Source: a virus. Taken from it: a DNA stretch of 36,126 bases. The DNA is taken from positions 1 to 36,126 of IMG/VR virus record IMGVR_UViG_3300034375_006804, one strand, 5' to 3'. How positions within the stretch are numbered: position 1 is the first letter of the stretch; each line of letters starts with the position of its first letter. The notes beneath the pieces are model-generated. The model was not told the DNA's origin, did not search any database, and saw nothing but the letters and a program-made list of their open reading frames with translations. Of this stretch, positions 22,107-32,927 are shown in pieces. The position numbers and the translations under genes are program-made.

Positions 22107-22139
22107 GTGTATTGTTTAATTTCAAATGTAGGTAATGAC

Positions 22140-22820
22140 ATGCATAATAACACTGGCGACTATAACACTGGCGACTGTAACACTGGCGACTATAACACTG
22201 GCAACTGTAACACTGGCTACAAGAACACTGGCTACATGAACACTGGCGACTGGAACACTGGCGACAGGAACACTGGCAACTGGAACACTGGCAACTGGAA
22301 CACTGGCGACAGGAACACTGGCAACTGGAACACTGGCTACAAGAACACTGGCTACTGTAACACTGGCGACTGGAACACTGGAGACTATAACACTGGCGAC
22401 AGGAACACTGGCTACTGTAACACCATAACGCTTGATGAAGTGCTTATATTTAATAAATTGGGTAAGCGTAAGGATTGGGAAAACGCAGATAAACCAGATT
22501 GGATGTTTGTTGATTTAACTGAATGGATTTATGAATCAAATATGACGGATAAAGAAAAAGAAGCCTACCCATCATATGTTACAACAGGTGGTTATCTGAA
22601 ATGCTATCCTAGCTTAAAAGCGGCGTATATTGAAGCTTGGGAAAATGCGGATAAAGAAGATAGGGATAAAACTTTTAAATTACCTAACTTTGACCCAGTT
22701 GTTTTTGAAGAAATATTCGGCTTTAACCCATGTGATTGCGTAGAAGAAAAGCGAGAACATGAAGTTGTAGAGCAAGATGTAATAACAATTAATGGCGTTA
22801 AATATAAAAAGGTAGATTAA
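22140..22820 (+). CDS. Pentapeptide-repeat (NTGxx) protein
   Basis: A 226-residue protein. I prefer the ATG at 22140 (preceded by aggtaatgac) over an in-frame GTG at 22107. Residues 4-93 are 18 perfect five-residue units NTG[DNY]x, a pattern predicted to form a right-handed quadrilateral beta-helix; some pentapeptide proteins mimic DNA. The rest is a folded domain with DWENADKPDWMFVDLTEWIY and AYIEAWENADKEDRDKTFKL, then the tail ITINGVKYKKVD. A similar tail ends the unrelated repeat protein at 34266-34973. First gene of the rightward block; function unknown. Confidence 0.78.
   Translation: MHNNTGDYNTGDCNTGDYNTGNCNTGYKNTGYMNTGDWNTGDRNTGNWNTGNWNTGDRNTGNWNTGYKNTGYCNTGDWNTGDYNTGDRNTGYCNTITLDEVLIFNKLGKRKDWENADKPDWMFVDLTEWIYESNMTDKEKEAYPSYVTTGGYLKCYPSLKAAYIEAWENADKEDRDKTFKLPNFDPVVFEEIFGFNPCDCVEEKREHEVVEQDVITINGVKYKKVD
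22149..22418 (+). repeat. 15-bp tandem repeat, 18 units, coding
   Basis: Eighteen contiguous 15-base units based on aacactggcgactat encode the NTGxx pentapeptides. The aacactggc core is nearly invariant, while the last two codons vary among gac/aac/tac and tat/tgt/tgg/agg/aag/atg. The nucleotide uniformity beyond what the protein needs indicates recent expansion or gene conversion. It is coding, so it is not a CRISPR array. Confidence 0.9.
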
Positions 22821-27333: not shown

Positions 27334-28014
27334 ATGACAGATTCACAAGGCTGGATAAGCTTACACCGAAAAATTATAGATAACCCTATGTGGTTATCTG
27401 AACCCTTCACACGTTCTCAAGCATGGATAGATTTATTATTACTGGCAAACCATGAGTATGGGTATTTCTATATCAGAGGCAATAAAATTGATGTGCAGAG
27501 AGGAGAGGTTGCTAGGAGTGAGGAGCAATTAGCACTTCGTTGGAAGTGGTCGAGAGGAAAGTTAAGGGGCTTCTTGAAAGCGTTAAAAAATGAACAACAG
27601 ATTGAACAACAGAAGTCTAAGTTAATCAATAAGATAGTTATAGTAAATTACGATAATTATCAAAATAGTGTACAACAGACTGAACAACAGAAAGCCGACA
27701 GAAAGCCGACAGAAAGCCGACAGAAAGACATAAACAATAATAATAACAATAATAATAATGAAAACAATATAGGGGATTTGCCTAAATGGTTACCTATAGA
27801 TGATTGGGTAGCTTTCAAAGAAATGAGGCAAGAAATTAAAAAGCCAATGTCGCAACTTGCCGAATCTAGAATGATTAAAAAGCTAGATAGATTACGTAAT
27901 GAAGGTTATGACCCAGCAAGATTGCTTGATAGGTCTATAATTAATAAATGGCAAGATGTGTTTGAGGATAGTTCTTGCAAGGTAAAGGGTGAATTTTCGG
28001 GGATGTTCGGATGA
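27334..28014 (+). CDS. Replication initiator / replisome organiser-like protein
   Basis: A 226-residue protein. The N-terminal 85 residues (GWISLHRKIIDNPMWLSEPF, then TRSQAWIDLLLLANH) are the winged-helix start typical of phage replication initiators that resemble DnaD or lambda O-type proteins. A hydrophilic linker follows with QQ repeats, KPTESRQ and a run of nine Asn (about 132-140). The C-terminal segment (DDWVAFKEMRQEIKKPMSQL, then RMIKKLDRLRNEGYDPARLL) would contact replication proteins. The linker DNA contains repeat arrays and an A-rich tract, making it a candidate origin. SD cggagg; overlaps the methyltransferase by 4 bases. Confidence 0.8.
   Translation: MTDSQGWISLHRKIIDNPMWLSEPFTRSQAWIDLLLLANHEYGYFYIRGNKIDVQRGEVARSEEQLALRWKWSRGKLRGFLKALKNEQQIEQQKSKLINKIVIVNYDNYQNSVQQTEQQKADRKPTESRQKDINNNNNNNNNENNIGDLPKWLPIDDWVAFKEMRQEIKKPMSQLAESRMIKKLDRLRNEGYDPARLLDRSIINKWQDVFEDSSCKVKGEFSGMFG
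27591..27771 (+). other. Candidate replication origin: iterons plus A-rich tract inside the initiator gene
   Basis: Four copies of a 10-base motif tgaacaacag occur at 27591, 27603, 27669 (one mismatch) and 27681, in two pairs 12 bases apart. They are followed by three perfect 11-base repeats cagaaagccga (27688-27698, 27699-27709, 27710-27720) and a partial fourth (27721-27729). Directly after comes an about 40-base tract of almost only A and T with scattered C/G (27730-27771). Iterons next to an easily melted tract within the initiator coding sequence is the arrangement of lambda ori in gene O. Function is inferred. Confidence 0.6.
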
Positions 28015-28880
28015 AAGTATTAGATTTATTCAGTGGTATAGGTGGTTTTAGCTTAGGCTTAGAGCGAGCAGGTATGGAAACCGTGGCGTTTTGTGAGATA
28101 GAGCCGTTTTGCCAGAAAGTATTAAAAAAACACTGGCCAGATGTACCAATTTTTAATGATGTAAGGAGTTTGGATTATGACGGAACAATTGATGTTATTT
28201 GCGGAGGATTCCCTTGCCAGCCATTCAGTGTTGCCGGGAAGCGAAAAGGCAAGGAAGATGACCGCCACTTATGGCCGGCTATGTTTAACCTCATCAAAAA
28301 ATATAAACCAAATTGGGTTATTGGAGAAAATGTTACTGGACTCGTTAATATGGGCCTCGATGAAGCGATTACTGACTTGGAAGGAGAAGCGTACACCACA
28401 AGGGCGTTTATTATACCAGCTTGTGCCGTCAACGCCCCACATAGACGGGATAGACTCTGGATTGTTGCCAACCGCAACAGCGAGCGATGCAACAGTGGGA
28501 GCAATAATAGGAAAAAAGGACACCTTCAAAAGGAACAAGTCCGGAACACTAAGGAAAATCAACAGAAATGGAAAAAATGGGAGTCTTGGATTAGCTCGTA
28601 CATTAGCGCTGTTGCCGACACAAACAGCATCGGACGAGAAAGGGGGCAGGGCGAAGGATACCCCACGCAAGGGGGCGAAGAAGTCAAACGTTCGGGATGT
28701 GTTGAACGAAGTATATGGGCAAACTGGGATAACCACATATCCGAACCCCTCATACGTAGAGGAGATGATGGGTTTTCCCAAAGGACACACAGACTTAGAG
28801 CATTAGGAAATAGCGTAGTCCCTCAAATACCTGAGATTATAGGGCGTGCTATTATGGAGGTGGAAAATGATAACAATTAA
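28011..28880 (+). CDS. C5-cytosine DNA methyltransferase (Dcm-like)
   Basis: A 289-residue enzyme that would transfer a methyl group from SAM to C5 of cytosine. Motif I is DLFSGIGG (5-12), motif IV GGFPCQPFS with catalytic Cys69, motif VI ENV (106-108), motif VIII HRRDRLWIVA (144-153) and motifs IX/X RLRALGNSVVPQ (261-272). The region between VIII and IX is short, giving a compact target-recognition domain. No restriction enzyme is next to it, so it is probably a protective orphan methylase. A second long ORF (28177-28806) lies in another frame within it. Start overlaps the initiator stop (atga). Confidence 0.93.
   Translation: MKVLDLFSGIGGFSLGLERAGMETVAFCEIEPFCQKVLKKHWPDVPIFNDVRSLDYDGTIDVICGGFPCQPFSVAGKRKGKEDDRHLWPAMFNLIKKYKPNWVIGENVTGLVNMGLDEAITDLEGEAYTTRAFIIPACAVNAPHRRDRLWIVANRNSERCNSGSNNRKKGHLQKEQVRNTKENQQKWKKWESWISSYISAVADTNSIGRERGQGEGYPTQGGEEVKRSGCVERSIWANWDNHISEPLIRRGDDGFSQRTHRLRALGNSVVPQIPEIIGRAIMEVENDNN
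28177..28806 (+). CDS. Overprinted ORF nested in the C5 methyltransferase gene
   Basis: A 209-residue frame, +1 relative to the methyltransferase, fully inside it. It has its own SD aaggag (28163-28168), 8 bases before the ATG. The product starts MTEQLMLFAEDSLASHSVLP and contains SVLPGSEKARKMTAT, LTWKEKRTPQGRLLYQLVPS, SGLLPTATASDATVG and, at the end, NPSYVEEMMGFPKGHTDLEH. I recall very similar proteins recurring in phage proteomes beside or over Dcm-type genes, often ending LNPxxVEWLMGFPxGWTxLE. It could be a real second protein or a conserved by-product of methylase codon constraints. Function unknown. Confidence 0.6.
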   Translation: MTEQLMLFAEDSLASHSVLPGSEKARKMTATYGRLCLTSSKNINQIGLLEKMLLDSLIWASMKRLLTWKEKRTPQGRLLYQLVPSTPHIDGIDSGLLPTATASDATVGAIIGKKDTFKRNKSGTLRKINRNGKNGSLGLARTLALLPTQTASDEKGGRAKDTPRKGAKKSNVRDVLNEVYGQTGITTYPNPSYVEEMMGFPKGHTDLEH

Positions 28881-29136
28881 AGACTTATGGAGAACACAAG
28901 GTGAATACATGCAAACATGCCCAGTATGTTCACCACATCGCAAAAAGAAACGTGATAAATGCTTGGGGGTGAAAAGAGAAGGGGACGTTATTGTTTATCA
29001 CTGTTTTCATTGTGGAATAAAAGGTAAAATCCAATTAGGAGGGGAAAATGGAATTAGCAGAATTTGCGAAAGACAGAAAACTAGAGCTAGGGTTGTTGTT
29101 CGACCGAGGCGTAACAGAGTACCAGCAAAACGATGA
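28867..29136 (+). CDS. Primase zinc-ribbon protein (separate cistron)
   Basis: An 89-residue protein; ATG 28867 has ggaggtggaa upstream. Cys18, Cys21, Cys46 and Cys49 (TCPVC and YHCFHCG) form the zinc ribbon seen at the N-terminus of T7 gp4-type primases, which reads the priming site. The last 28 residues, Arg-rich (TRARVVVRPRRNRVPAKR), are encoded by DNA that also encodes the start of the Toprim-helicase and do not look like a conserved domain. It overlaps that gene by 89 bases in a different frame and the methyltransferase by 14. Confidence 0.75.
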   Translation: MITIKDLWRTQGEYMQTCPVCSPHRKKKRDKCLGVKREGDVIVYHCFHCGIKGKIQLGGENGISRICERQKTRARVVVRPRRNRVPAKR

Positions 29137-30448
29137 AAACTGGATAGAGATACCATACTACAGAGAAGGTGTGAAGGTAAACGCAAAGCATCGTTGTTTA
29201 GACGAGAAGAAATTTTATCAAGACAAAGATGGAGAGAAGATATTTTACAACATTGACAGTTTACAAAACGAAAAATGGAAAGATGAGCCATTGATTATTT
29301 GCGAAGGTGAGTTGGACGCTATAACGTTCATACAATCAGGTTATCCTAAAACTATATCAGTTCCAGAGGGTGCGCCTAATGAACAAATGGGAGGAGATGG
29401 CAAAAAATACCAGTTTCTTGACGGTATGATTGATACTATCCGAAAGCAACCAAAGGTAATACTTGCAGTTGATTCTGATAAAAACGGAAGTAATTTATTG
29501 AATGACCTAGCATCAAAGATAGGTAGAGGTAAGTGTCACGAAATCAAGTACCCTCAAGGCTGCAAGGATATTAACGAAACCCTTGTAAAATATGGACAAA
29601 AAGGGATTGTAAAGTCTTTAGATACTGCTAGAATACTAGACCAGGACGGGGTTTTTAAACTTAGTGAATTACCCAAACAACAACCAAGAAGAACCTATGA
29701 AACAGGGCATGTTACTAGTAAGCTGTTTAAGTTTAGAGAGGGTGATTTTTCTGTATTAACTGGTATTCCGAGCATGGGAAAAACTACGTTATTAAATGAT
29801 TTGTTGTGTACAACGTTACTAAACAATTCAGATTTAAAGGTTGCCTTTGCAAGTTTTGAGCAAGACCCACAAGAAGACCAAGTACCAAGTTTAATACAGT
29901 GGTATGTAGGTAAGGGGTTAGGAGATGAGAGTCAAGCTTACAGGTGGATAGACAAGAGGTTTGCTTTTATTATGCCTAGTGAGAGGCAACAGTTAAACGC
30001 TAATGAATACATAGACTTAGAGTGGTTTATAGATAAAGTAAAATATGCAGTAGATAAAATGAATTGTAAAATAATAATACTAGACCCGTGGAATGAATTA
30101 GAGCATCAACCTGCGATAAACGAGTCATTAACTCAGTATGTTGGATGGGCTATAGTTCAATTAAAACGATTAGCTAAGGTATTGAAAGTGCATATAATGG
30201 TAGTTGCACACCCTGCCAAACAGTACAAAGATAAGGATGGTAATTACAACATACCAAGTTTGTATGATATATCGGATTCAGCACATTGGTTTAATAAACC
30301 AGAGCTTGGCTGTGTAGTGCATAGAACACCAGAAGGGACTACTATTTTTAAGACAGCAAAGTCACGTTATCACGATAAGATAGGTCGGGTTGGCGATATA
30401 AAACTAAGGTTTGATATGAATAAAAAATCATTTGAGGAGGCTTGGTGA
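29048..30448 (+). CDS. Toprim-DnaB-type primase-helicase (T7 gp4-like, lacking its zinc ribbon)
   Basis: A 466-residue protein. The Toprim catalytic motifs are LIICEGELDAITF (Glu86) and VILAVDSDKNG (Asp142, Asp144), for primer synthesis. The RecA-like helicase core has Walker A GIPSMGKTT (239-247), Walker B KIIILDPWNE (Asp346) and a late VVAHPAKQ motif (H3-like). It would unwind the fork and prime lagging strands. The zinc ribbon normally fused at the N-terminus is in the overlapping upstream cistron. A strong SD aggagggg immediately precedes the ATG, and a tag stop closes this frame just upstream. Confidence 0.9.
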   Translation: MELAEFAKDRKLELGLLFDRGVTEYQQNDENWIEIPYYREGVKVNAKHRCLDEKKFYQDKDGEKIFYNIDSLQNEKWKDEPLIICEGELDAITFIQSGYPKTISVPEGAPNEQMGGDGKKYQFLDGMIDTIRKQPKVILAVDSDKNGSNLLNDLASKIGRGKCHEIKYPQGCKDINETLVKYGQKGIVKSLDTARILDQDGVFKLSELPKQQPRRTYETGHVTSKLFKFREGDFSVLTGIPSMGKTTLLNDLLCTTLLNNSDLKVAFASFEQDPQEDQVPSLIQWYVGKGLGDESQAYRWIDKRFAFIMPSERQQLNANEYIDLEWFIDKVKYAVDKMNCKIIILDPWNELEHQPAINESLTQYVGWAIVQLKRLAKVLKVHIMVVAHPAKQYKDKDGNYNIPSLYDISDSAHWFNKPELGCVVHRTPEGTTIFKTAKSRYHDKIGRVGDIKLRFDMNKKSFEEAW

Positions 30449-32051: not shown

Positions 32052-32927
32052 ATGAAAACAGTTATAAATCAAAAACAAACAGATACTTACTCAATATACA
32101 ATGGCGATAGTTGTGAAGTGTTGCAATTCTTAGATAGTGAATCTATAGATTTTCAAATATTTTCTCCTCCCTTTGCATCTTTGTACACGTATTCACATTC
32201 TGATAGGGATTTGGGTAACAGCAAAACATACGAAGAGTTTTGGAATCATTATAAATTTTTAATAAAAGAACAATATAGAATTTTAAAACCAGGTAGGCTT
32301 GTATCAATTCACTGTATGAATCTACCTACATCCAAACAGCGTGATGGTTTTATTGGTATTCAGGATTTTAGAGGGGATATAATTAGGGCTTATCAAGATG
32401 CAGGCTTTGTTTATCATTCAGAAGTGTGTATATGGAAAGACCCAGTAATAGCAATGCAAAGAACAAAAGCACTTGGATTGAAGCACCAGCAAATAAAAAA
32501 AGATAGTGCAATGAGTAGACAAGGCATACCAGATTACTTGGTTACAATGCGAAAAAAGGGAGACAACCTAGATCCGATAAAGCATACAAATGAGAATTTC
32601 CCTTGTCGAGTATGGCAAAAATATGCAAGTCCTGTGTGGATGGATATTAATCCATCTGATACACTTCAACACAGGTCAGCACGTGAACATGATGATGAAC
32701 GTCATATATGCCCATTGCAATTGCAAGTAATATCAAGAGCTATAGACCTATGGACAAATAAGGGAAATGTTGTTTTAAGTCCTTTTATGGGGATTGGCTC
32801 GGAGGGTTATGTTGCGCTTGAAAAACAAAGAAAATTTATAGGATGTGAGCTAAAGGAAAGTTACTATAAACAAGCAGAAAAAAACCTTGAATCAGTTAAG
32901 AAAAAAACATACGAGTTAGACGTGTAA
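32052..32927 (+). CDS. Beta-class DNA methyltransferase, probably N4-cytosine
   Basis: A 291-residue SAM-dependent enzyme. Motif IV is IFSPPFASL (SPPF at 38-41); motif I is near the C-terminus, LSPFMGIGSEGYVAL, followed by FIGCELKESYYKQAEKNL. Motif IV before motif I is the beta-class order. SPP[FY] more often marks N4-cytosine enzymes, whereas DPP[YF] marks N6-adenine enzymes, but this rule has exceptions. No restriction endonuclease gene is adjacent. It forms a two-gene unit with the SNF2-like helicase upstream. Confidence 0.88.
   Translation: MKTVINQKQTDTYSIYNGDSCEVLQFLDSESIDFQIFSPPFASLYTYSHSDRDLGNSKTYEEFWNHYKFLIKEQYRILKPGRLVSIHCMNLPTSKQRDGFIGIQDFRGDIIRAYQDAGFVYHSEVCIWKDPVIAMQRTKALGLKHQQIKKDSAMSRQGIPDYLVTMRKKGDNLDPIKHTNENFPCRVWQKYASPVWMDINPSDTLQHRSAREHDDERHICPLQLQVISRAIDLWTNKGNVVLSPFMGIGSEGYVALEKQRKFIGCELKESYYKQAEKNLESVKKKTYELDV

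Follow-up and report, generated by a model that had tools for sequence, protein, structure and literature searches.

Two C5 cytosine methyltransferases, M.AquI and M.EcoHK31I, are natural two-polypeptide enzymes (PMC3404938), and M.EcoHK31I has been used as a naturally split enzyme (PMC3439449). In the passages of PMC3404938 that deal with M.EcoHK31I (YGGCCR; Lee, Kam and Shaw 1995, as cited there), the large polypeptide comprises motifs I-VIII and X and the small one motif IX. Several monomeric C5 methyltransferases have been complemented from pieces, the best cut lying between motif VIII and the recognition domain (PMC3404938). Canonical monomeric enzymes such as M.HhaI and M.HaeIII carry motifs I-X in one chain, and the beta polypeptide of M.AquI (CYCGRG, alpha/beta) consists of the distal variable region, motif IX and motif X. 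The gene for the small polypeptide of M.EcoHK31I is located within that for the large one and is read in a different frame.

The locus described here is situated in a virus record of 36,126 nt (IMGVR_UViG_3300034375_006804), the whole of which is referred to as the window. Judged from its sequence, it very probably encodes one two-polypeptide C5 cytosine methyltransferase, in which an inner gene specifies the second subunit with motif IX and, probably, target recognition. The outer gene (28011-28880, plus strand) encodes a C5 cytosine methyltransferase of 289 aa, the proposed large (alpha) polypeptide, with motifs I-VIII and X and without IX. Wholly inside it, on the same strand, lies the inner gene (P0001; 28177-28806), which encodes the proposed small (beta) polypeptide of 209 aa; the offset between the two ORFs is 166 nt, and the inner frame is thus +1. 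Both the nested 209-codon ORF and the Shine-Dalgarno sequence 8 nt 5' of its ATG (TAAGGAG, 28162-28168) are present as an earlier note on this DNA had described them.

Landmarks of the two frames alternate along the overlap. The outer frame contributes the motif IV Cys codon (28215-28217; residue 69, in PCQ), which is invariant in the alignment and which we take to be that of the catalytic Cys of C5 methyltransferases, the motif VIII region HRRDRLWIVA (28440-28469), where the inner frame reads HIDGIDSGLLP, and motif X, RLRALGNSVVPQ (28791-28826). In the inner frame, a conserved LTWK...RLLYQLVPS segment (28366-28434; inner residues 64-86), in which W68 and L82 are at least 90% conserved among 105 sequences, is followed by two repeats, LLPTATASD (28462-28488; T99 97% and P100 90% conserved in the family) and LLPTQTASD (28609-28635; T148/P149 in the family), and by a motif-IX-like element, NPSYVEEMMGFPKGHTDL (28744-28797), assigned by family conservation and by a chain of profile alignments to canonical motif IX. 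The earlier note had seen conserved-looking motifs of both frames on the same DNA at two places. At HRRDRLWIVA this does not hold, since PQGRLLYQLVPSTPH of the inner frame (28396-28440) abuts its start and adjoins it rather than overlaying it; at the other place it does, the inner stop codon (28804-28806) being overlapped by RLRALGNSVVPQ.

Several neighbouring features were noted in passing. A 173-codon antisense ORF crosses the same methyltransferase gene on the minus strand (28269-28790). A second DNA methyltransferase gene is found at window positions 32052-32927 (N6_N4_Mtase, PF01555, E 1e-21), so that modification genes in this phage number at least two. At 28867-29136, a short ORF whose product has two CxxC pairs, reminiscent of a zinc ribbon, shares about 90 nt, in the +1 frame, with the start of an ORF for a Toprim-DnaB_C protein (29048-30448, Pfam matches); the two look like a primase-helicase divided between overlapping frames. 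A pentapeptide-repeat protein is encoded at 22107-22820 (PF01469, E 4e-26).

The motif content of the two products is complementary. The outer protein matches the Pfam methyltransferase profile PF00145 with an E value of 4e-48, but only over profile positions 1-213 of 324, and phmmer aligns only its residues 2-157 with M.HhaI; both matches end at motif VIII or a little past it. The C-terminal profile of its family aligns with canonical enzymes at motif X only (E 2.1e-6); motif IX did not turn up in the outer frame in this comparison. Searches of Pfam, NCBIfam and PDB sequences gave no match to the inner protein; its family is PHROG 1008 (E 6.5e-31), which carries the label ‘DNA methyltransferase’. 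The most conserved block of the family is LNPxWVExLMGFPxGWTDL, in which N190, P191, V194, E195, M198, G199, P201, W204 and T205 are each conserved in at least 90% of members, and a protein of the family contains 0-6 (L/W)PTP repeats at a median spacing of 35 residues. In a direct profile alignment with canonical enzymes, the inner C-terminus, LNPxWVExMMGFPxxW, falls on motif IX only, and weakly (E 0.04). The connection is made by a module of actinophage methyltransferases: it aligns with the inner protein (hhalign E 2e-15; the X-HMM matches 89/90 modules) and, in a profile comparison, with canonical motifs IX-X (E 1.5e-4), the alignment placing RLs..F.EWMMGlPxGW on the motif IX sequence RkLTxREcARlQGFPd. 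Jointly, outer and inner protein possess the full motif set, each being without what the other has; a heteromeric C5 methyltransferase is the most likely reading.

The two frames could yield such an enzyme in the following manner: The outer frame would be translated into a large polypeptide bearing motifs I-VIII, for cofactor and catalysis, and the closing motif X, the poorly conserved stretch between VIII and X, which has no motif IX, serving as a linker. From its own ATG, the inner +1 frame would give a 209-residue partner consisting of an N-terminal part, the (L/W)PTP repeat region and motif IX, with the repeat region occupying the position of the target-recognition domain. The two polypeptides may then associate into the active enzyme, to which the inner protein would supply the small (DNA-recognition) domain. 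We infer translation, association and activity of both polypeptides from the comparisons reported here; a role of the (L/W)PTP repeats in target choice is suggested by their position and conservation.

This arrangement has the motif division of M.EcoHK31I, with I-VIII and X in the large and IX in the small polypeptide as far as the cited passages describe that enzyme, and it has the same kind of small gene, nested in another frame. It differs in that the target-recognition domain predicted for M.EcoHK31I, again according to those passages, is in the large polypeptide, whereas the fused forms discussed below suggest a location in the inner frame here; moreover, the locus is that of a phage without a recognised restriction partner, and the likeness drawn here is one of motif layout and nesting. 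With M.AquI it shares the natural division of a C5 methyltransferase into two polypeptides (PMC3404938). However, the small subunit of M.AquI combines IX and X, whereas in the present locus the outer frame specifies motif X and encloses the small gene completely. The monomeric enzymes M.HhaI and M.HaeIII have the same catalytic domain and the same total motif set.

Relatives in actinophages connect the nested form with single-chain enzymes. In mycobacteriophage WillSterrel and its relatives, LLPTP repeats followed by RLNPAFPEWMMGWPTGWVT stand in the methyltransferase frame itself, between motifs VIII and X; the inner module is homologous to this segment (PHROG 1008 vs WillSterrel, E 1e-57). 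Mundrea has two overlapping ORFs labelled ‘DNA methylase’, and the second of these, gp77, matches PHROG 1008 with an E value of 1e-78. Of 94 loci of this type, 43 have the fused form, and in 45 the enzyme is split, an overlapping +1 second ORF carrying the module and motif X. Actinophage split forms such as Mundrea gp78/gp77 are AquI-like; L032, L386-L393 and about 40 other actinophage-like loci are divided in this manner into two ORFs, the second of which overlaps in +1 and holds the repeats, IX and X. In a model of a fused enzyme (pTM 0.70), the C5-methyltransferase fold extends over the IX and X regions as well; the model matches M.HhaI with an E value of 8e-14, the (L/W)PTP repeats being mostly of low confidence. 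In Gordonia phage Gudmit (L027, 2260-3642), LLPTP repeats occur in both frames, three in +1 and then two in frame 0, the latter pair beyond a stop in +1, which gives the impression that the frame was switched by an indel inside the repeat array.

The earlier note had left the inner product with an unknown role, naming a partner or an anti-restriction factor as possibilities. A real inner protein with a separate role of this kind, be it anti-restriction or regulation, would fit the lack of a Pfam or NCBIfam domain and an N-terminal half that has conserved residues of its own and in which strands are predicted at residues 65-72 and 78-85 (mean pLDDT 92 over residues 71-80). It also counts against the two-subunit reading that AlphaFold gives a low-confidence model for the inner protein by itself (pLDDT 68, pTM 0.34), with which a structure search returned no match. 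Yet the C-terminal module is the in-frame VIII-to-X segment of actinophage methyltransferases, the inner protein supplies exactly the motif that the outer protein lacks, and no inner gene without a methyltransferase was present among the 275 loci examined. A separate role is therefore improbable, and the suggested anti-restriction factor finds no support; it was the other suggestion, that of a partner, that anticipated the reading preferred here, in which the inner protein is a subunit of this very methyltransferase, contributing motif IX and probably target recognition.

Conservation of the inner frame was assessed on loci chosen in two ways: 80 loci (L036-L115) were fetched by the methyltransferase frame alone, blind to the inner frame, and further ones were fetched by the inner frame (80 viral and 80 from bacterial genomes) or taken from annotated phages, giving 275 in total. 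The inner frame is found in 275/275, in the same +1 relation, so that homologues of the inner product do lie in the alternate frame of methyltransferase genes; this count includes L067, which had been considered as a stand-alone inner gene and proved to be a second methyltransferase gene in tandem that has an inner frame itself. All 80 loci picked by the methyltransferase frame contain it, 78 with essentially full-length coverage. In L004-L006, the inner ORF has a later start; recoding of TAG, considered as a way of opening the N-terminus, was rejected, TAG being an ordinary stop of neighbouring ORFs. Two assemblies contain equally scoring copies of the nested pair at several places, a Lihuaxuella genome at three (L202-L204) and a Roseovarius assembly at five (L233-L237), suggesting near-identical prophages in one host.

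Stop codons were counted in the 74 loci with clear landmarks, separately for the two halves of the overlap. The inner frame contains none, where synonymous shuffles predict 101 and 123; such alternate-frame stops in homologues, about 225 of which would be expected, are what the earlier note had said would speak against the gene. The outer frame likewise contains none, as compared to 168 and 285 expected when inner codons are shuffled. With zero stops in either frame over both halves, both frames are coding throughout. This bears on programmed frameshifting, by which ribosomes would pass from the outer to the inner frame after motif VIII and back again, making one chain of motifs I-VIII, target recognition, IX and X. 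Such a product would restore the canonical motif order, and fused forms do exist. Frameshifting, however, has no need for an open and constrained inner frame over motifs IV-VIII, where there are zero stops and synonymous divergence is low (see below), or for an open outer frame over the IX region, and it requires two shifts. Furthermore, Shine-Dalgarno matches of at least 5 bases are enriched near in-frame inner starts (50% of 219 loci vs 20% after shuffling, 2.5x), which favours separate initiation. Frameshifting is thus even less probable than a separate role, and two separately initiated polypeptides are the preferred reading.

As a measure of selection on the overlap, divergence was determined at those codons of the methyltransferase that are fourfold-degenerate and conserved. 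Values of 0.454 and 0.464 were obtained upstream and downstream of the inner ORF, and values of 0.213 and 0.177 inside it, the former for motifs IV-VIII and the latter for the part that follows. In 66 independent pairs, each locus being used once (pair counts in the pooled analysis are partly non-independent), it is 0.488 outside and 0.221 inside the inner ORF, a decrease of more than half, and is lower inside in 62/66 (Wilcoxon p = 2e-12). In a profile along the gene, divergence declines near the inner start, from about 0.65 to about 0.30, and recovers at the inner stop codon, from 0.40 to 0.67. The excess constraint at synonymous sites for which the earlier note had called is thus present; homologues, profile scores and this constraint lend strong support to the conserved, overprinted gene pair that the note had suggested. 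From these patterns we infer that the inner ORF is translated as a gene and that selection acts on its protein.

The openness of the inner frame points in the same direction. In the gene described here, the longest +1 open run is 213 codons, whereas 500 synonymous-codon shuffles give 65 on average (p = 0.002), and the +2 control frame gives 32 vs 37; across the 80 loci, the median longest +1 run is 246 codons vs 102 after within-gene synonymous shuffling, with no excess in the +2 frame (45 vs 48). The 22 canonical C5 methyltransferases tested, from bacterial genomes carrying the phage type, have no conserved +1 frame: none matches the inner profile, and their +1 runs are not outstanding against shuffles (two p below 0.1, none below 0.03), whereas phage-type genes in the same bacterial-genome sample have the inner frame in 8/8. 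That the inner ORF is a by-product, kept open and similar by chance through a conserved methyltransferase protein and codon bias, is scarcely credible and is rejected by the synonymous shuffles and the fourfold-site tests: although shuffled genes still reach a median of 49 bits against an inner-protein profile built from 14 other sequences, so that part of the raw tblastn similarity is such a by-product, the real genes reach 176 bits and exceed the best of 20 shuffles per locus in 80/80, openness is confined to +1, synonymous constraint is bounded by the inner ORF, the canonical enzymes have neither openness nor profile matches, and split-type genes, whose inner frame is mostly closed by stops over the same segment, drop only a little there (from 0.65 to 0.51).

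According to the titles of the genome loci, the nested pair occurs in phages and prophages of Bacillota, Bacteroidota, Pseudomonadota and others, and in most records seen only one gene of the pair is annotated; plasmid searches gave only further matches under methyltransferase labels. Members of the inner family in Paenibacillus larvae phages, Shelly gp56 and Lily gp63, are annotated as ‘g55 internal gene’ and ‘g62 internal gene’, which in the records seen are bare labels with no analysis of function or conservation attached. K1G ORF30, labelled ‘Mte8-like’, is nested too, and no informative paper on ‘Mte8’ was found in the literature searched. The arrangement as such is already known from M.EcoHK31I. 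No report of a phage-wide nested dcm gene was found in the open literature searched, and what appears to be unreported so far is the breadth and constraint of the nested gene in phages and its relation to the split and fused forms.

The pair is a fully nested, same-strand overlap of about 210 codons with unusually strong comparative evidence. When such phage Dcm genes are cloned singly, a subunit is expected to be missing, which could give inactive or misassigned enzymes. For the family as a whole, a wider picture has, in our estimate, about an even chance of being correct: across a phage family of very large size, a shuffling (L/W)PTP array and motif IX, in a frame overlapping the catalytic half, would together form the half of a C5 methyltransferase that recognises DNA, and indels in the array would move lineages among the nested, split and fused forms, so that a single indel could rewire the frame of target recognition. 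With these three forms, one can test directly how a gene overlap evolves and how the halves of an enzyme are joined and separated.
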